From: a bacterium
Lineage (GTDB): Bacteria; UBP4; UBA4092; JAOAEQ01
DNA length: 33,763 nt
Assembly (NCBI GenBank): GCA_026416715.1
Contig: JAOAEQ010000028.1
Location: forward strand, 1 to 33,763
Direction: 5' to 3'
The notes under the pieces are model-generated. The model had not been told where the DNA came from, did no database searches, and worked only from the letters and a program-made list of their open reading frames with translations. This document shows positions 2,823 through 16,979 of this stretch, in pieces. A program made the position numbers and the translations under genes. The stretch's first letter is position 1, and every line of letters starts with the position of its first letter.

Positions 2823-3815
2823 ATGAAAATCCTGTCAAGAAAAATAATGGCGTGGAGTATGCCAGGATTGATATTAGTAGTTTGTTTTATGCTGGGTAGT
2901 ATTCTCTATGCCCAAGAAGAAGGCAGGGGACCGGGAGCTATTGGGATTAATCGCGCCCGCGAGGTAACCGGAGAAAAGGTTAAATGTCCGCAATGCGGTA
3001 CGCTCAATGACCCGACGAATAATAATTGTGTAAGTTGTGGATATGCCTTGAAATCCGGAGGGAGTTCCACCCCACCACCATCCGTTTCTGTTGACGAATA
3101 CCGCCGGTTTCAAGCCGCCGCTCCGCAAGTCGTTCCAGATGGCAGTACACCAGGAAACCAACCTCAAGTGAAGGAAGAAAAACGATATACCGTGGTAGAA
3201 GGGGTCCATGAGAGCTGTGTAAAATGCAATAAAGAGTTACGTAAACCCAAGAAACGAGAAATTTTCGAATCCCAGTTAGCGGGATTCTATGACGATGGTG
3301 CCCATGGTGATGAAGTTGCGGGGGATGGTATTTATAGTAATATTACCGAAGAGAAAGACCGCCTTTGCGATGAATGTTGGGATCAATTTCAATCCCTGCA
3401 ACGGTTAGTAAAATATTCGCAACAGGATAGTCCGGTAGAATTTTATATGGTTTCGGTGGCGGCCGAAGACCCGTCAACAACCCCTCCCTCGCCCATACCG
3501 ACCCAAGGATATTGGGCTTCCCGGCGCGATGGACGAGACGGTTTTTTTGCCGATTATACGACGCGAATTTTTGCCTCATACAAAGATCCGATTACCAAAG
3601 AGTTTTACAAACAATTCCAGTGGACGGTCGAAGAACTAGCGGCAATCAAAGCCGAAAAGAAACGGCAGACATTGGAACAGCGGTGGCAGCAACAACAGAA
3701 TCACCAACAGGAACCAACAAGAGATACTCCTATGTATGGTGAAGTGCAACCCGAACAATACCGAAGTAGTTATTTCGGTGAACAACATAGCGGCCCGCAC
3801 ACAGGACCAGAATAG
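2823..3815 (+). CDS. Secreted protein with two zinc-ribbon-like Cys pairs, function unknown
   Basis: 330 residues, with a strong ribosome site (AAGGAGGCGG) before ATG. A signal peptide covers residues 1-30 (IIVVCFMLGS-like core ending LYAQ). A compact zinc ribbon follows: C55-x2-C58 ... C69-x2-C72. A proline/serine linker leads to a second set, C132-x2-C135 ... C182-x2-C185, whose two halves are separated by 46 residues. That gap holds DDGAHGDEVAGDGIY (157-171), a motif common in secreted calcium-binding-like modules. The C-terminal third contains an aromatic-rich stretch (YKDPITKEFYKQFQWT) and a Gln-rich tail. Zinc ribbons are typical of cytoplasmic proteins, so one behind a signal peptide is unusual. 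The gene stands alone with its own promoter candidate and terminator. I do not recognise a characterised homologue. Confidence 0.85.
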   Translation: MKILSRKIMAWSMPGLILVVCFMLGSILYAQEEGRGPGAIGINRAREVTGEKVKCPQCGTLNDPTNNNCVSCGYALKSGGSSTPPPSVSVDEYRRFQAAAPQVVPDGSTPGNQPQVKEEKRYTVVEGVHESCVKCNKELRKPKKREIFESQLAGFYDDGAHGDEVAGDGIYSNITEEKDRLCDECWDQFQSLQRLVKYSQQDSPVEFYMVSVAAEDPSTTPPSPIPTQGYWASRRDGRDGFFADYTTRIFASYKDPITKEFYKQFQWTVEELAAIKAEKKRQTLEQRWQQQQNHQQEPTRDTPMYGEVQPEQYRSSYFGEQHSGPHTGPE

Positions 3816-4064: not shown

Positions 4065-6416
4065 ATGAATTTTATAGTTAAAAGAGTCATTGGAAGTGTT
4101 GTTATCATCATTATCCTAGGTGTTCTATTTTGGTTAGATGTTCCATTAGATACCCTGCGACGGAGCCATGAATATCCCGGAATAACCTATATCACTGCAC
4201 ATTATTTGAGTTTCTTCGGTTCCGGAGGCGTATTAGCGGGAATCGCTGGATTACTCTTCTTATATGGACTACTCAAAGATTCAAATAAAACCATCCAGAT
4301 TGCGCATCAACTTATCATTGCGCTGCTGATAACCGGAATAATCATTTGTATACTTAAATTGACCATCGGTAGGATTCGACCGAAATTGCCGAATAAAGGA
4401 ATGTTTGTTTTCTTCCCGGGATTTACTGCTCAAGCTGGAGTTCAATCTTTTCCGTCTGGGCATACCGCAGCAATATTTAGTTTCGCGCCTATATTCACTT
4501 TATTGTCCCCTATACTTGGTATTATCGCATATGCCATGGCAACGCTCGTTGCGATAACGCGAATTCATTCCGATTTGCATTTTATCACCGATGTAGTTAT
4601 CGGCGCAGGATTAGGGATACTCATCGGAACGATCGTTGTTCATAAGGCGCATGCGGGAAATAAGTTCTTTCGATTATCTCTTTCAAAAAGGAATCTTATC
4701 CTATATTCACTGTTAATAATTTTAATTTTAAGTAGTTTCCTGTTCTTCTACCGACTGGGGACCCCAGGACTTTTCGATTTAGATGAATCAGTTTTTGCAG
4801 AAGCAACGCGGGAAATGCTCGAAACCGGCAACTGGATAACCCCCTATATGAATTACGAACTCCGATTCGATAAACCGATTCTCATCTACTGGCTGATGGC
4901 TATTGCTTATAAAATGTTTGGAATTAACGAGTTTGCTGCTCGGTTTTGGTCAGCTTTAAACGGAACAATTCTAGCGCTATTTATCTTTTATTTCGGCGTG
5001 AAATGGAACGATATTAAATTCGGATTATTAAGCAGTCTGATTTTTTTGACCTGTTTGGAAACGATGATACTTGGTCATGCAGCAATAACCGATATGACCT
5101 TATTACTGTTTATAACTGGCGCATTACTTGCATTTTATCGGGCATACAGTTCAGAATTCGCAAATGGAAAACGATGGTATTATCTTTTTTATACCGCAAT
5201 GGCGCTAGCGCTTTTAACGAAAGGAATAATCGGAGTAGTTTTTCCCGTGGGTATCATTCTAATATTTCTCATACTTACACGCCAGGTGAAAACAACCCTT
5301 CAAGAAGCGAAGGTATTAGCGGGATTCGGAATGTTCCTGATTATAGCGCTACCGTGGTATATTCTCGTTTATCTGCAAAACGGTTGGGCGTTTATTCAGA
5401 AGTTTATCATATTCCATCATCTATACCGATTCACTGAACCTATTGGTGGTCATTCTGGAAATGTATTCTATTATATTCCAATTATTCTATTCGGCTTTTT
5501 CCCTTGGAGTAGTTTTCTTTATTCAGGAGTCACCGCTTCTATTCCTTGGCGATGGAAACAATGGAGCACTCTTCCGAAACGAGAGCAATTTCCGATATTG
5601 TGTATCATCTGGATAGCGGTAGTTTTTTTATTTTTCACGGTTGCGCAAACGAAACTCCCAAACTATGTCGCCCCGTTATTTCCGCCGATGTCATTTCTGG
5701 TTGCCTCCTGGTGGTATAAAAAGTTAGATTCCAAATTCCAAACTGCAAATTCCCCAAAAAGACATTTGGATTCCGAAGTGTTATCTGCAGACTCCTCGCC
5801 TAATGCTTGCGAGAAAGAGACGGAACTAAATTCGACCGTTGCCGCTATAACCTTGTTGTTATTGGGTAGTATTCTTGGAATAACATTTATCATATCCCCA
5901 ATAATCATTAAGAATATTGCAGCAAGCGGGAAATTAGCAGGTATGGAATCATTCAAACTCGGATTTATTCCTTATCTGCTTGGAATACTCTTCCTGCTCG
6001 GAACGAGTAGTGCAGCAAATCTTTTATGGAAAAAGAAATATGCTGCAAGCTTCATCGTTTTAATCATTCTAATGCTGCTATTCTGGTTCTTTGCGCTAAC
6101 AGAGTTGGTTCCAATTGTTTATGAATATCAACAAGGACCGATATATCGTTTCGCTACCGGTATCAAGAACGAATTACAACCGACCGATATTATCGTCGAA
6201 TTCGGACATAATAATCCGTCGGTGATATTTTATAGCCAACATCGGATCCTGCGCCTTGGCACCAACCAATTCGACCGATTAACCGAATTATTTCAATCTT
6301 CAAACCGTGTGTATCTTATTTCGAATAAACTGAAACTCCGTGACCAATTCCAGCAACTACCGAAGTTTCAATTGATTGCTATCGAAGGCCAATATCTTTT
6401 TGCGAAGAATTTCTAA
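4065..6416 (+). CDS. Fusion of PAP2 lipid phosphatase and PMT/ArnT-like glycosyltransferase
   Basis: 783 residues, almost all membrane helices. Residues 1-200 form a PAP2 phosphatase with all three signature motifs: KLTIGRIRP (98-106), PSGH (130-133) and R166...H172...D176. From about residue 215 a GT-C glycosyltransferase of the PMT/ArnT (GT39/GT83) family begins: FDLDESVFAEATREML, then RFDKPILIYWLMAIAYKMFG, with a further ten or so helices and a soluble C-terminus. GT-C enzymes take a sugar from a polyprenyl-phosphate carrier and release the carrier phosphate; PAP2 enzymes hydrolyse lipid phosphates or pyrophosphates. One chain may therefore couple glycosyl transfer with carrier recycling (inference). 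Residues 555-592 form an extra loop encoded by a 7-bp repeat array (5728-5755). No Shine-Dalgarno site is visible. The frame is continuous across both domains. Confidence 0.9.
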   Translation: MNFIVKRVIGSVVIIIILGVLFWLDVPLDTLRRSHEYPGITYITAHYLSFFGSGGVLAGIAGLLFLYGLLKDSNKTIQIAHQLIIALLITGIIICILKLTIGRIRPKLPNKGMFVFFPGFTAQAGVQSFPSGHTAAIFSFAPIFTLLSPILGIIAYAMATLVAITRIHSDLHFITDVVIGAGLGILIGTIVVHKAHAGNKFFRLSLSKRNLILYSLLIILILSSFLFFYRLGTPGLFDLDESVFAEATREMLETGNWITPYMNYELRFDKPILIYWLMAIAYKMFGINEFAARFWSALNGTILALFIFYFGVKWNDIKFGLLSSLIFLTCLETMILGHAAITDMTLLLFITGALLAFYRAYSSEFANGKRWYYLFYTAMALALLTKGIIGVVFPVGIILIFLILTRQVKTTLQEAKVLAGFGMFLIIALPWYILVYLQNGWAFIQKFIIFHHLYRFTEPIGGHSGNVFYYIPIILFGFFPWSSFLYSGVTASIPWRWKQWSTLPKREQFPILCIIWIAVVFLFFTVAQTKLPNYVAPLFPPMSFLVASWWYKKLDSKFQTANSPKRHLDSEVLSADSSPNACEKETELNSTVAAITLLLLGSILGITFIISPIIIKNIAASGKLAGMESFKLGFIPYLLGILFLLGTSSAANLLWKKKYAASFIVLIILMLLFWFFALTELVPIVYEYQQGPIYRFATGIKNELQPTDIIVEFGHNNPSVIFYSQHRILRLGTNQFDRLTELFQSSNRVYLISNKLKLRDQFQQLPKFQLIAIEGQYLFAKNF
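5728..5774 (+). repeat. 7-bp unit repeat array inside the PAP2-GT fusion gene
   Basis: Four consecutive 7-mers, ATTCCAA, ATTCCAA, ACTGCAA, ATTCCCC (5728-5755), then a partly inverted arm CATTTGGATTCC (5763-5774). They are translated in frame as the polar loop SKFQTANSPKRHLDSE between hydrophobic segments. The composition is unlike the flanking membrane-helix coding sequence. Confidence 0.6.
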
Positions 6417-10020: not shown

Positions 10021-11484
10021 ATGCTTTTATCTAACGTGGCGAAAACCATAGCTAAATATCAGTTATTTCAATCCGGTGATAAAGTCGTTATCGGTGTTTC
10101 CGGCGGACCGGATTCGATCGCGTTACTCTATTGTCTTAATGAATTGAGAGAAGAATACCAGCTGAAACTAATTATCGCCCATCTCAATCATCAAATTCGC
10201 GGAAAAGAAGCGGATGCGGATGCTCGGTTCGTTCAATCCCTAGCTAAAAAACTACAATTTCCATGTTTCGTTAAATCGGTCAATGTTCCAGCATTGGCAA
10301 AAAAAGAAAAGAAATCGCTGGAAGAAACGGCGCGACAGATTCGGTATGCGTTTCTCTGGGAATTAGCGGTTAAGAAACAAGCGAATAAAATTGCACTTGG
10401 TCATACTGCGGATGACCAGATTGAAACAATAGTAATGTGGTTTTTACGCGGGTCCGGACCGGAAGGATTAAGCGGAATGCCAGTCGTTCGCCAGAGCGAA
10501 GTACCTAGTACCCAGTACCAAACAGAGAGAAGTGTTCGATGTAAATGCAAGCATCCAATTTATATTATACGCCCGTTACTGGAAACATCAAGAAAAGAAA
10601 TTCTGGAATATCTGAACCAGCATAAAATCTCGTTTCGGCAGGATACGACAAACCTAAAACCAATCTATCTTCGGAATCGGATTCGGTTAAAACTGCTACC
10701 GCTGTTGGAAAAAGAATATAATCCGAATCTTCGGGAGACGTTATTACGCACCGCTACTATTCTCCGCGATGAACAGGATTATTTTAATTCCGCAGCGAAT
10801 ATGTTATTTCCCTGTTTATGGAATCGCGAACGAACTGATTGTATTGCACTTAACATAACCGAATTGCGACGGTTAGATAAGGCAATACATCGGCATCTCG
10901 TTCGTCAGGCGATTGAACGGGTTCTCGGTTCATTATCCGGGTTCGGATTCGAACATATCGAAGCGATACTTGAACTAGTGAAATCCGGTGGAGATGGATT
11001 AATGCTGCATTTACCGCATCAGCTAACAGTTCGGATTGAACAGGATCATCTATGTTTCTACCTCGAACACCCGATAAAGAAAACTATTCAACCGAATAAA
11101 TTGATTGCAGTTCCCGGAACCACGCAAATCGAGACGTTGGGAATTAAAATTAAGACCGAATTGCGTACAGCATCTCCGTCTGCATCCGCTAAAATCCGTT
11201 TGAATCAGAATGATATAGCATTGCTTGACGCAGATAGAATTCAGTTTCCATTAACCCTCCGCACGTGGCAACCAGGGGATATCTTTTTCCCACTCGGAAT
11301 GACCGGAAAAAAGAAACTGCACGATTTCTTTATTGATGAAAAGGTTCCGCGAACGCAACGCGATAAAATTCCACTTATCGTTGCAAAGAACGGTGATATC
11401 CTTTGGGTGGTGGGTAAGAGAATCAACGAGAAGTATAAAGTTACTTCCGGAACGAAACGAATTCTGCGAATAACCTTTACATAA
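10021..11484 (+). CDS. tilS: tRNA(Ile)-lysidine synthetase TilS
   Basis: 487 residues. TilS converts the wobble C34 of tRNA-Ile(CAU) to lysidine so that it reads AUA. The N-type ATP-pyrophosphatase P-loop SGGPDS is at residues 27-32, HLNHQIRGKEADAD follows, and HTADDQIETIVMWFLRGSG is the catalytic/adenylate segment. The C-terminal domain ends with RTWQPGDIFFPLGMTGKKKL and VPRTQRDKIPLIV, so both TilS domains are present. Between GMPVVR and IIRPLLE (residues about 158-181) there is an extra loop of some 24 residues absent from typical TilS, encoded by a 7-bp repeat array at 10500-10520. No strong ribosome site precedes ATG. The gene converges on efp. Confidence 0.95.
   Translation: MLLSNVAKTIAKYQLFQSGDKVVIGVSGGPDSIALLYCLNELREEYQLKLIIAHLNHQIRGKEADADARFVQSLAKKLQFPCFVKSVNVPALAKKEKKSLEETARQIRYAFLWELAVKKQANKIALGHTADDQIETIVMWFLRGSGPEGLSGMPVVRQSEVPSTQYQTERSVRCKCKHPIYIIRPLLETSRKEILEYLNQHKISFRQDTTNLKPIYLRNRIRLKLLPLLEKEYNPNLRETLLRTATILRDEQDYFNSAANMLFPCLWNRERTDCIALNITELRRLDKAIHRHLVRQAIERVLGSLSGFGFEHIEAILELVKSGGDGLMLHLPHQLTVRIEQDHLCFYLEHPIKKTIQPNKLIAVPGTTQIETLGIKIKTELRTASPSASAKIRLNQNDIALLDADRIQFPLTLRTWQPGDIFFPLGMTGKKKLHDFFIDEKVPRTQRDKIPLIVAKNGDILWVVGKRINEKYKVTSGTKRILRITFT
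10500..10520 (+). repeat. 7-bp unit repeat array inside tilS
   Basis: Three copies in tandem: AGTACCT, AGTACCC, AGTACCA. Read in frame as part of EVPSTQYQT, inside a loop that typical TilS proteins lack. Confidence 0.65.
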
Positions 11485-11486
11485 AC

Positions 11487-11553
11487 CACTAAGTCACCAA
11501 AGCACTAAGTATAATGATACAGATTTTTTCTTGGTATCTTAGTGTCTTGGTGA
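11487..11553. repeat. Inverted 8-bp unit repeat pair between tilS and efp, likely bidirectional terminator
   Basis: Left array: CACTAAGT, CACCAAAG, CACTAAGT (11487-11510). The right arm (11530-11553) contains CTTAGTGTCTTGGTGA, which pairs with 11494-11509 with two mismatches. It fills the convergent gap, starting 3 nt after the tilS stop and ending 5 nt before the efp stop. AT-rich flanks suit termination in both directions. Confidence 0.65.
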
Positions 11554-12461: not shown

Positions 12462-15149
12462 TTAGGGTTTATGTTTTATTTTTTCCTGCAGTTCCTGAAG
12501 TTTCTGCAACGCTTGGAGAGGAGTTAAGTTCGATAAATCGAGCGATTTAAGTTCGTCAACAACCGGATGGCTAACGAAATCGAAGAACGATAACTGTATT
12601 CCGGAGACCATTTCCGGCTGAGGCGATTTCGTTCCTACTTCCGGATGGGTTGCCGCGAGTTCTTCTTTCGCAGTTCGGCTATATTTTTCTAAATCGAACA
12701 GAACTTCTTTTGCACGCTGGATAACCGAGAGCGGAAGTCCAGCCAATCGGGCAACAGCAATTCCATAACTTTTATCGCAAGGGCCAGGAACAATCTTATG
12801 CAAGAATATAACTTTTTCGTTCCATTCACGAACCGCAACATTATAATTTTTCATCCCAGCTAGAACTGAAGCGAGTTGGGTTAATTCATGATAATGGGTA
12901 GCAAATAAAGTTCGCGCATGTACCATATCGTGAATATATTCTGCTACTGCCCAAGCGATTGATAAGCCATCAAAGGTACTGGTTCCACGACCGATTTCAT
13001 CTAGAATTAATAGACTACGAGATGTAGCATTATGCAAGATATTTGCCGTTTCATTCATTTCAACCATAAAGGTTGATTCGCCACGAAGTAAATTATCCGC
13101 AGCACCGACCCGCGTGAAAATACGATCAACTAACCCGAGTTTAGCGGATTTCGCCGGTACATACGACCCGATTTGACCTAGTAAACTGATTAATGCTACT
13201 TGCCTGATGTAGGTTGATTTCCCTGCCATATTCGGTCCGGTAATCAGCAATAACCGATTTTCGTTGGTATCAATATAGGTATCGTTTGGAACAAATTGCT
13301 GTTCCGGCAGGAACCGTTCGATAACCGGATGCCGGCCATCTTTAATTTCGATAATCGGTTCTTCCGTCAATTCCGGTAAACAATAATCATATCTGACCGC
13401 AACTTCCGCTAACGTTGATAGAACATCAAGCAATGCGAGTGCATCTGCGGTCTGCTGGATACGTTTCGTTTGCGCAATAACTTTCTCCCGTATTTCACTG
13501 AATAGCTGATATTCCATTTCAACCATTTTCTCTTCAGCGCCGAGAATTTTCGATTCCCACTCTTTAAGTTCCGGAGTGGTGAACCGTTCCGCATTAGCGG
13601 TAGTCTGTTTCCGTTCATAATCCGCAGGAACGAAAGCAAGATTCGGTTTGGTAACCTCAATATAATATCCGAAAACGTTATTGAATTTAACTTTCAGCGA
13701 TTTTATTCCAGTTCGTTCGCGTTCGCGAGCTTCCAGTTGTGCGACCCAATTTTTGCCACCGCGACTAATTTCCCGCAGTTCATCTAACGGCGGAAAATAG
13801 TTATCTTTAATCAAACCACCTTCTTTAACCGATAACGGTGGGTCATCAACAATCGCACGATGAATTAAATCACGCAGTTCGGGAATATCGTCGAGGGAAT
13901 TTATAGTTTGCTGTAAAAGGGAAGGGGGCGATTCATCTATTCCAATATTTTTGCGCGGAATACATTGCGTCAGTACCTTGTTTATGTCAGGAACTATATC
14001 TAACGATTTTTTAAGGGAAAGAACATCCCGAGCATTTGCCACGCCACAACCGATTTTACCAAGAAGCCGTTCTAAATCGTAAATGTTATCTAATAACTCA
14101 CGCAAGTTCCGGCGCAAGGTATGATCGTGATAAAAGAAATGAACCCCGTGCTGTCGCTCTTTAATTTTTTCAATATTTAATAAAGGTTGGCTAAGCCAAT
14201 GTCGTAGTTTCCGTCCACCCATTGCGGTTATTGTTTCGTCGATAACCCCTAAAAGCGACCCGGATTTCGATTTTTCCCGCTGGGTATAAAATAATTCTAG
14301 ATTTTGACTGGTGGTAGCATCCAAGATAAGATATTCTTCCGTAGAATAGGTTCTTATTGAAGTTATATGGGATAACTCCGTTTTCTGGGTATCTTTCAGA
14401 TAGGCAAGAATAGCGCCGGCTGACCCAACAGCTAGTTGTAACGATTCACAACCGAATCCTTTCAGGGTTGTTGTCTGGAAGTGTGCGGTCAGTTTCGGAT
14501 ATGCGGTATCATAAGCGAATTGATATTCCTGATATGGATAAACCGTCAGTGCTGGTTGCTGGGAGCAAAGTCCGAACATCGGACTTTGCTTAGATAACGA
14601 ATCGGGTAGCAAACATTCCCGAGGTGATAACCGTTCTAGTTCAGTCTTAAGTTTAATCAAATCAGGGGTATCAGTAAATTCGGTTACCAAAAATTCGCCC
14701 GTAGATAAATCCGCTATTGCGAATCCTATCTGGATCCGGTTAGCATCAAATTTAGGGTTGATAGCGATAAGATAATTATTAATCTTTTCATCAAGCAGAC
14801 TGCCTTCAAGAACCGTTCCGGGAGTAACTACTCGGACTATCTGCCGTTTCACCACACCTTTCGCGAATTTCGGATCTTCCATCTGCTCACAAATAGCAAC
14901 TTTGCATCCCTGTTTAATTAATCGCGCAAGGTAAGCATTAACCGCATGATGCGGCACTCCAGCTAACGGAACTGTTTGATCTTTTCCAACATGTTTTTTC
15001 GTTAGCGTAAGTTTCAGCAGTTTGGCACCGAGAATTGCATCATCGCCGAACATCTCATAGAAATCGCCTACCCGAAATAAAAGAATTGCATCAGGATGCT
15101 GGGATTTCAGCTGATGATACTGCCGCATTAACGGAGTAAACTGTTCCAT
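12462..15149 (-). CDS. mutS: DNA mismatch repair protein MutS
   Basis: 895 residues, complete MutS1. The mismatch-binding domain has the Phe-x-Glu motif at F30-Y-E32 (GDFYEMF). The core and clamp domains follow, and the ABC-type ATPase shows Walker A GPNMAGKST (638-646), the signature RGESTFMVEM and Walker B LILDEIGRGTSTFDG (from about 713). The C-terminus has the tail region after the helix-turn-helix (LSFFDF...). MutS recognises mismatches and recruits MutL, which is not in this window. Start ATG 15149 gives the standard EQFTPLMRQY opening; its ribosome site is weak. A repeat-unit hairpin abuts its stop codon. It is divergent from the GT-C gene at 15390. Confidence 0.97.
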   Translation of the reverse strand: MEQFTPLMRQYHQLKSQHPDAILLFRVGDFYEMFGDDAILGAKLLKLTLTKKHVGKDQTVPLAGVPHHAVNAYLARLIKQGCKVAICEQMEDPKFAKGVVKRQIVRVVTPGTVLEGSLLDEKINNYLIAINPKFDANRIQIGFAIADLSTGEFLVTEFTDTPDLIKLKTELERLSPRECLLPDSLSKQSPMFGLCSQQPALTVYPYQEYQFAYDTAYPKLTAHFQTTTLKGFGCESLQLAVGSAGAILAYLKDTQKTELSHITSIRTYSTEEYLILDATTSQNLELFYTQREKSKSGSLLGVIDETITAMGGRKLRHWLSQPLLNIEKIKERQHGVHFFYHDHTLRRNLRELLDNIYDLERLLGKIGCGVANARDVLSLKKSLDIVPDINKVLTQCIPRKNIGIDESPPSLLQQTINSLDDIPELRDLIHRAIVDDPPLSVKEGGLIKDNYFPPLDELREISRGGKNWVAQLEARERERTGIKSLKVKFNNVFGYYIEVTKPNLAFVPADYERKQTTANAERFTTPELKEWESKILGAEEKMVEMEYQLFSEIREKVIAQTKRIQQTADALALLDVLSTLAEVAVRYDYCLPELTEEPIIEIKDGRHPVIERFLPEQQFVPNDTYIDTNENRLLLITGPNMAGKSTYIRQVALISLLGQIGSYVPAKSAKLGLVDRIFTRVGAADNLLRGESTFMVEMNETANILHNATSRSLLILDEIGRGTSTFDGLSIAWAVAEYIHDMVHARTLFATHYHELTQLASVLAGMKNYNVAVREWNEKVIFLHKIVPGPCDKSYGIAVARLAGLPLSVIQRAKEVLFDLEKYSRTAKEELAATHPEVGTKSPQPEMVSGIQLSFFDFVSHPVVDELKSLDLSNLTPLQALQKLQELQEKIKHKP

Positions 15150-15389: not shown

Positions 15390-16979
15390 ATGGATAAAGA
15401 AAAGAAAATTCTGCTGATAATTCTGTTATTTACTCTTGCATCACGCCTGGTTTTCTTACACTGGAACGCTGGCGAGTATACCGATGGTATCATCCAGATG
15501 ACCTTGTTTACTACGGCAAAAGAGAATACGTTTTATCCGCCGTTATATTCCTGGTTGATTCAACTATTTACCCTAATATTTCGTGATTTAGAGACCAGTG
15601 CTAAATTGGTCTCGATGCTCGCCGGGACATTAAGCATTATCCCGATATATCTCATTGCAAAACGGTTGTTTAATGCCAAGTCCGGATTCTATGCCGCTAT
15701 GTTATTTGCCATCTCGCCTGAAATCTGGCGATGGCATATTCGGATTATGACGGATTCGTTGTTTACCCTGTTTTTTATCTGGAGCATCTATTTTATTCTG
15801 TGCATCCGACAACCGACATCCGACATCCGAAATTTATCTTTCGCATGGTTTTTTGCCGGATTAGCGAGTCTAACCAGATATCAAGGGATTGCACTCATTC
15901 CGCCATTGTTACTCCAAACTGTATATATCATTCGTCGTGGTTTCTTAGATACAGCTGAGTCCGACGTACCACGTATCCCATACCGAGTAATTTTATCTTA
16001 CGCAAGTGTAGCAATTATTCCTTGGCTTTCTCTCATCTGGTGGGTAGGAACGCGCGGATTTGGCCATATCGGGCAATATGCTGAACGAACCGGTGAAAAT
16101 TGGGTGATTAGTATAATGTCATATCTAACCATGGCAGAATCATTTGTTCTTTATATCCCGTATGAACTAACTTACCTAGTGTTTAGCCTTTTTATTTATG
16201 GGATAATAACAATGAATCAGAGAACGGGTGAATGGGTGAATAGACGAACAGAAAGCAAAACTGGTTTTTTCCAAAGTACCGATTCTGCGGTTTGCCAATT
16301 CAATATTATCTTTATGTATCTTTTTGTCGTTTGGCTCATTATCCATTCACCATTTGAATCGTTCCAGTATCGGTATTTTATCCCGATATTTCCATTTTTC
16401 TTGATACTCGCAGCGTATGGGATAACTAGATTTACCGCAGAGAATGCAGAGCATGCAGAGAAAAGACAAAAAGGGTTGCGAGTTAAAAAAACCATTGTCG
16501 TTATTACAATGATGAGTTGCCTTATATTTTCATTATTTTCACTTTATCTTCAGCGGGATACTTTCGGAGATATAAAACGTGCGGCAATTGCGTTGAAAGA
16601 ATCACAGATTCCGAAAGATACACGAATTTTCGGAAATGAACTCTACCGTCCGGGAATGGATAACTTGAAACTCGAATTCTGGTCAGGATTGAACGTTGAA
16701 CCGTATAATCTCGAAACGCGGGAACACGTGCTACCAGGAGACTATATTGTACTCCATAATGTTTATGGCAATATAGTCGGTGAATTAGATTTTTTACAGA
16801 GCCGGTATAAGGTTAGTAAAATATATCAATCGCTCGCGCAAACGGTTCCATTACTTCCGGATATTATGGTATCTCCACCGTTCACCAGCCATCCGGCATG
16901 TATGCTATTTAAATATTTCCCACAAAAGTTTATAACCATTATCGTGCGGATAGAAAAACGTAACGATTCTTCCGAATGA
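15390..16979 (+). CDS. GT-C (PMT/GT39-like) membrane glycosyltransferase
   Basis: 529 residues with about ten membrane helices. The N-terminal half has GT-C features: a first outer loop with HWNAGEYTDGIIQMTLF, then FYPPLYSWLIQLF (like the PPLxY motif of dolichol/undecaprenyl-phosphate mannosyltransferases), FNAKSGFYAAMLFAISPEIW and the TDSLFTLFF helix. A C-terminal soluble domain ends without further helices. It likely transfers a sugar from a polyprenyl-phosphate donor on the outer face of the inner membrane. The gene carries three separate repeat-coded stretches in loops: residues 138-147 (IRQPTSDIRN), 279-285 (TGEWVNR) and 349-358 (TAENAEHAEK). It is followed 55 nt later by the YfhO gene, probably one unit. 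No ribosome site is visible. Confidence 0.85.
   Translation: MDKEKKILLIILLFTLASRLVFLHWNAGEYTDGIIQMTLFTTAKENTFYPPLYSWLIQLFTLIFRDLETSAKLVSMLAGTLSIIPIYLIAKRLFNAKSGFYAAMLFAISPEIWRWHIRIMTDSLFTLFFIWSIYFILCIRQPTSDIRNLSFAWFFAGLASLTRYQGIALIPPLLLQTVYIIRRGFLDTAESDVPRIPYRVILSYASVAIIPWLSLIWWVGTRGFGHIGQYAERTGENWVISIMSYLTMAESFVLYIPYELTYLVFSLFIYGIITMNQRTGEWVNRRTESKTGFFQSTDSAVCQFNIIFMYLFVVWLIIHSPFESFQYRYFIPIFPFFLILAAYGITRFTAENAEHAEKRQKGLRVKKTIVVITMMSCLIFSLFSLYLQRDTFGDIKRAAIALKESQIPKDTRIFGNELYRPGMDNLKLEFWSGLNVEPYNLETREHVLPGDYIVLHNVYGNIVGELDFLQSRYKVSKIYQSLAQTVPLLPDIMVSPPFTSHPACMLFKYFPQKFITIIVRIEKRNDSSE
15803..15830 (+). repeat. 7-bp unit repeat array inside the GT-C gene
   Basis: CATCCGA, CAACCGA, CATCCGA, CATCCGA in tandem, read in frame as IRQPTSDIR between two hydrophobic helices. 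Confidence 0.65.
16226..16241 (+). repeat. 8-bp unit doublet inside the GT-C gene
   Basis: GGGTGAAT twice in tandem. A loosely inverted ATCCATTCACCATTT follows at 16341-16355. Read in frame as GEWVN within an extra polar loop. Confidence 0.45.
16436..16462 (+). repeat. 9-bp unit repeat array inside the GT-C gene
   Basis: CGCAGAGAA, TGCAGAGCA, TGCAGAGAA in tandem, giving AENAEHAEK in frame. The 9-bp period equals three codons. The same unit opens the arm of the intergenic hairpin at 2610. Confidence 0.7.

Follow-up and report, generated by a model that had tools for sequence, protein, structure and literature searches.

A membrane glycosyltransferase gene in the 33,763-nucleotide stretch of DNA analysed here (the window) carries three different short repeat arrays, and we consider it reasonably probable that the gene collected them as pieces of dispersed short-repeat families spreading at the DNA level. 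The best reading of these data is that the lineage has been invaded by dispersed short repeats, which persist in frame at loops able to tolerate them, in the manner of Rickettsia palindromic elements (RPE). The gene itself has probably taken up stray pieces of repeat DNA, which form additional loops without doing harm. We directly observe shared repeat units, the boundary and inverted arms of one family, insertions at arrays 2 and 3 relative to two homologues, and the same pattern in two further enzymes, TilS and a phosphosugar mutase.

Three arrays within one glycosyltransferase gene

The product of the host gene belongs to the PMT_2 family, matching PF13231 with E 8.2e-24 and 85.1 bits against a curated Pfam cut-off of 26.1. 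The gene and its arrays are as follows.

15390-16979, + strand: PMT_2-family glycosyltransferase gene, GT-C type; 529 aa, multi-spanning membrane protein
15803-15830, + strand: array 1, CATCCGA CAACCGA CATCCGA CATCCGA; TRF score 49; encodes CIRQPTSDIR
16206-16265, + strand: 20-residue insertion (aa 273-292) that holds array 2
16226-16241, + strand: array 2, GGGTGAAT x2; TRF score 33; encodes TGEWVN
16437-16462, + strand: array 3, GCAGAG-N3 x3, GCAGAGAAT/GCAGAGCAT/GCAGAGAA; TRF score 45; read as T-AEN-AEH-AEK

All three repeats reported in an earlier note on this DNA are present, and both copies of GGGTGAAT are exact; what the note counted as four CATCCGA units are three exact units and one CAACCGA. 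The reading frame is open through all three arrays, confirming that each is in frame, and the 9-bp unit of array 3 keeps the frame by itself, as had been proposed. One additional unit of 7 or 8 bp shifts the frame, and whole-unit variation would therefore be harmless at array 3 only. The whole-unit length differences among strains that the note named as support would disrupt the frame at arrays 1 and 2.

No solved structure matched the glycosyltransferase, and a single-sequence AlphaFold model was too poor for use (mean pLDDT 43), so the loop placement of the arrays is taken from hydropathy. By this measure arrays 2 (aa 279-284) and 3 (aa 350-358) have hydrophobic spans on either side, in agreement with the earlier description of each array as lying in a loop, whereas array 1 (aa 138-147) begins at the end of hydrophobic span 119-142 and continues into the next loop.

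Homologues of the glycosyltransferase (G001 and G013) align over nearly its full length. In a MAFFT alignment with the homologues of L017 and L018, the 20-residue insertion around array 2 is missing from both, as are about 7 of the array 3 residues AENAEHAEK (16437-16457), and the array 1 loop differs in length among the homologues without net insertion. With homologues only 46% (G001) and 36% (G013) identical as the reference, this pattern suggests that arrays 2 and 3 arrived as one-event insertions; neither a target-site duplication nor a recent empty site was seen. It also makes plausible the low constraint on these loops that the earlier note had offered as one explanation.

Chance expectations were derived from 20 codon shuffles of the 347 predicted genes in a 434-kb sample of the genome. 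At period 7, nine arrays with a TRF score of at least 33 were observed against 0.70 in the shuffled genes, making genic heptamer arrays 13-fold commoner than this null, and three scored at least 45 against 0 in the shuffles. Period-9 arrays scoring at least 45 likewise numbered three, against 0.05. At period 8, five arrays scoring at least 33 were found against 2.5 in the shuffles, whose maximum was also five. Given these counts, arrays 1 and 3 stand well clear of chance, whereas array 2 taken alone does not. Three independent arrivals, as originally suggested, are well supported for two of the arrays only. Genes with at least three arrays numbered 2-3 among the 347, compared with 0.11-0.56 expected (P 0.005-0.014), and under random placement the probability of at least one three-array gene in this sample is 0.11-0.44. 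The clustering of three arrays within one gene is mildly unusual.

Period-7 arrays occur at 3.0 per 100 kb in the 434-kb sample of stretches from this genome, whereas none were present in the 200 kb taken from each of two comparison genomes, one of which is of the same class and has CCGCAGAG at a four times lower frequency. Because of this difference in density, which accompanies the 13-fold excess over the null, the high genome-wide frequency that the note gave as its other explanation is right for this lineage.

Array 3 and a dispersed hairpin family

Array 3 is, by its sequence, a half copy of the hairpin family TTYACCGCAGAG(NNNGCAGAG)n...CTCTGCGGTGAA. In the full form, tandem 9-mers make up two inverted arms that are separated by a few tens of bases. 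Two copies lie in the window.

16431-16466, + strand: half copy within the glycosyltransferase gene; outer boundary TTTACCGCAGAG, three units and an A-rich inner end, without inverted arm
2606-2655, no strand assigned: intergenic hairpin TTAACCGCAGAGAAC...GTTCTCTGCGG, between ORFs 1999-2568 and 2823-3815

Across the 2.96-Mb genome, GCAGAG-N3-GCAGAG matches 13 times, at 12 distinct sites (reversed control, 0), and the TTYACCGCAGAG boundary motif occurs 20 times, again with a reversed control of 0. The gene copy is one of these 20 sites: it has the outer boundary TTYA directly 5' of CCGCAGAG, in the form TTTACCGCAGAG, followed by three tandem 9-bp GCAGAG-N3 units. Most of the 20 sites have further units, a few being lone motif matches, and several are also paired with an inverted arm ...CTCTGCGGTGAA at a distance of some tens of bases. 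Members with more than one unit lie between genes or right at an ORF edge, with the exception of the glycosyltransferase copy, which is the only clear family member within a long ORF in its own genome. We call array 3 a half copy because the inverted second arm, present at several intergenic copies, is absent there.

Folded as single-stranded DNA, two full palindromes are far more stable than shuffled sequences (z -4.5 and -6.2) and a third full copy folds weakly (z -1.6). The intergenic hairpin at 2606-2655, a shorter copy, gives a DNA fold z of -5.4, with 0 of 200 shuffles equally stable, and the gene copy at 16431-16466 shows no single-strand folding beyond shuffles (z -0.08). Full copies bear terminal inverted repeats, a trait of MITEs, which the glycosyltransferase copy lacks. 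In an Rfam search, the repeat itself had no match to a known RNA. Acido-Lenti-1 RNA (RF01687) was found within tens of bases of CCGCAGAG-family hairpins, at L069 11407-11453 and 11691-11736 (- strand) and at L070 16139-16184 (+ strand).

The family extends well beyond this genome. In one scan of GTDB genomes, a 28-bp pattern of the family was found in 72 contig stretches from about ten phyla, as assigned from record titles (Verrucomicrobia, Planctomycetes, Gemmatimonadota, Cyanobacteria, Chloroflexi, Acidobacteria, Nitrospira, Lentisphaerae, Proteobacteria and candidate phyla), many of the loci stemming from the same few genomes. Since the core of this pattern came from the gene copy, independent evidence comes only from the flanks and the inverted arms. 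The inverted arm is nearby downstream in 27 of 73 foreign copies, and the bases outside the pattern (A at -1 in 65/70, T at -3 in 58/70 and T at -4 in 60/70) match the gene copy boundary TTTACCGCAGAG. Nine of 70 distinct foreign copies lie inside ORFs of at least 150 aa (putative genes), in various frames. Three tandem GCAGAG units were detected in 8 of 386 genomes, with the reversed control in 2, a less clean result than for the other families. Another tandem 9-mer family, AACAGGATT, appears nine times in foreign CCGCAGAG-family loci (L144, L148, L167, L173, L192 and L195), with a reversed control of 0.

Heptamer and octamer families

Judged by its units, array 1 belongs to a heptamer family, ATCCGA, that is dispersed in the genome. 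Exact CATCCGACATCCGA and GGGTGAATGGGTGA occur nowhere else in the genome, where matches carry mismatches; allowing at most three, the ATCCGA array recurs in three further places. The first is in frame in another PMT_2 membrane protein gene (L066 5730-7484), in a loop right before the helix GLGFGFALLTK, the counterpart of GLASLTR in the window gene. The second is in frame in thiL, with no net insertion, and the third is outside called genes. Three ATCCGA units were found in 12 of 386 sampled genomes (reversed control, 1) and additionally in 36 viral contig stretches. Array 2 is probably a member of an GGGTGAAT octamer family, three copies of which were found in 2 of 386 genomes (control, 0). 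A further heptamer, TTCTGA x3, was found in 4 of 116 genomes (control, 0).

Two other genes in the window hold heptamer arrays.

5728-5753, + strand: ATTCCAA x3.7, inside a PAP2 and PMT membrane protein gene (4065-6416)
10500-10519, + strand: AGTACC[T/C] x2.9, inside tilS (10021-11484), within an 18-aa insertion

The TilS insertion at the AGTACC array corresponds to a gap of 18 residues against 3a2k, 16 against 1ni5 and a break in 1wy5. In a phosphosugar mutase of this genome, a TCTGACT array of the TTCTGA heptamer family coincides with an 8-aa insert relative to 1wqa. Location in frame within protein genes, a trait of RPE, is seen for arrays 1-3, TilS, the phosphosugar mutase and thiL. From gene to gene, the repeat families differ in the frame and strand in which they are read. 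An apparent heptamer array in GroEL was rejected as chance A-rich low complexity without an insertion.

Other short repeats were noted nearby and elsewhere in the genome. The mutS gene, which adjoins the glycosyltransferase gene, has the 9-base repeat TTCCTGCAG x2.9 at its 3' end (window 12483-12508), and an intergenic octamer, TCTTGGTG x3, lies at window 11529-11552. A cluster of TATCCACA/ACTTATCAACA-like repeats at L061 18776-18952 resembles DnaA boxes and may mark a replication origin.

Discussion

We propose that dispersed short-repeat families spread through this genome as DNA, and that each piece would have entered a loop or loop edge of the membrane glycosyltransferase. There it may have been retained because it adds stop-free residues at sites where homologues vary in length. 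We infer that the host enzyme is still active and that the repeats are neutral for it. Counting against the proposal, array 1 and the thiL array are no net insertions, array 2 alone is within chance, and no Y1_Tnp gene turned up as a mobiliser.

Local tandem duplication would also account for such arrays, if they grew in place by slippage in weakly constrained loops and their likeness to repeats elsewhere reflects convergence on slippage-prone units. Among long simple repeats, those with a 7-bp unit are the most frequent in many bacteria, and slippage has been put forward to explain them (Mrazek 2007, cited in PMC4679880 and PMC4692102); array 2 is short enough for chance or a single duplication. 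We nevertheless regard this origin as unlikely, given that the same ATCCGA, GGGTGAAT and TTCTGA units turn up at unlinked genes and in distant genomes, with reversed controls close to zero, and that the 9-mer family has both a conserved non-repeat boundary, TTYA, and paired inverted arms. The fixed outer boundary of the array 3 family and its occurrence in many phyla, together with the ATCCGA units found again in unlinked genes and distant genomes, suggest that the arrays are more than local expansions, and the pieces would have come as ready-made DNA rather than having grown in place.

The repeats might instead be retained because a nucleic-acid-binding regulator or a nucleoid protein binds them, their genic location being incidental. 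The analogy is with Geobacter metallireducens, in which paired tandem 7-9-mers on opposite strands are annotated as predicted global regulator sites (PMC2700814), and most 9-mer copies here are likewise intergenic. We consider this improbable, as the glycosyltransferase copy is without a second arm and neither a regulator nor ordered placement was seen here.

Surface-sugar genes are classic phase-variable genes, and neither 7 nor 8 is divisible by three, such that gain or loss of a single unit by slippage at array 1 or 2 would shift the frame and switch the glycosyltransferase off or on. Such a contingency locus is very improbable: with merely four and two copies, and a mismatch in array 1, the arrays are short for a hypermutable tract, and similar heptamers lie in tilS and the phosphosugar mutase, which are poor switch candidates. 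It is also highly improbable that the charged loop segments TAENAEHAEKRQK, RTGEWVNRR and IRQPTSDIRN are selected, functional parts of the enzyme, for although they are stop-free, hydrophilic and at or beside loops, the array 2 and 3 segments are missing from two homologues, the 9-mer family is mostly intergenic, and the families are read in differing frames and strands by gene.

The reading we prefer, acquisition of dispersed repeat DNA, has precedents, and by analogy the short-repeat families described here are the same kind of thing as RPE, REPs and the Geobacter, TAACTGA and GGGAATC repeats. RPE are dispersed palindromic families that lie in frame within unrelated metabolic genes and add peptide segments, with no dedicated transposase reported (PMC10969869). 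The likeness is in dispersed DNA families that lie in frame in unrelated genes and add peptide segments there. However, RPE have been described in Rickettsia as complete palindromes that reach ~150 bp, whereas we find 16-36 bp pieces of 7-9 bp tandem units, the glycosyltransferase copy is a half element that is not palindromic (z -0.08), and its family spans many phyla. RPE end in CGTC (PMC3733652) and the family described here ends TTTCACCGC...GCGGTGAAA, which sets it apart from RPE by description.

REPs tagged with GTAG/CGTC are short palindromic dispersed repeats, some of them intragenic, that are associated with RAYT transposases (PMC3733652). The TTYACCGCAGAG family similarly comprises short palindromic dispersed repeats, some in genes, but no GTAG or CGTC end was present in its 70 foreign copies or in its copies here. 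The genome, reported as 100% complete, gave no match to Y1_Tnp (PF01797), for which five control genomes gave matches, and with no such gene detected we reject a RAYT as the mobiliser.

The Geobacter metallireducens repeats are closest in form. As described in PMC2700814, runs of three to five tandem 7-9-mers occur on opposite strands, the distance between them varying, with site classes that include the consensus TCTCCGTS and another, MTYCTGA, as well as a GGGACCG x4 heptamer family within and between genes. TCTCCGTS and MTYCTGA are close to the CTCTGCG and TTCTGA units found here but not identical, and the repeats are presented there, for a single species, as predicted regulator sites or as RNA elements.

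TAACTGA heptamers are common to Beggiatoaceae, Cyanobacteria and Bacteroidetes, being mostly intergenic and sometimes in ORFs, by a mechanism described as unknown (PMC4679880). They resemble our families as one heptamer family across distant phyla, and differ in unit. Their genic copies are at gene ends because the forward orientation has stops in all frames (PMC4679880), whereas the copies here are internal and in frame. GGGAATC heptamers of Xanthomonas and Nostoc are genome-wide, inter- and intragenic, and length-variable between related species (PMC4692102). Unlike the arrays here, they form G-quadruplexes, number nearly two hundred arrays per Xanthomonas genome and differ in sequence. A literature search for the literal repeat strings of the TTYACCGCAGAG family returned no paper, which is not proof of an unnamed family.

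A broader proposal, which we offer tentatively and hold to be rather doubtful, is that many phyla share hairpin or tandem families of fixed 7-9 bp units (CGCAGAG-N2, ATCCGAM, TTCTGAN and GGGTGAAT) that, with no recognised transposase, spread by some process yet to be described and time and again supply enzymes with new in-frame loops. Short tandem 7-9-mers are usually seen as slippage products. The boundary, the inverted arms, the spread over about ten phyla and the insertions in TilS, the phosphosugar mutase and the glycosyltransferase point instead to dispersed DNA elements that may feed peptide loops into proteins. If this is true, the movement of such small pieces of DNA without a visible transposase would need explaining, and these families would represent a widespread and seldom named source of variation in protein length.
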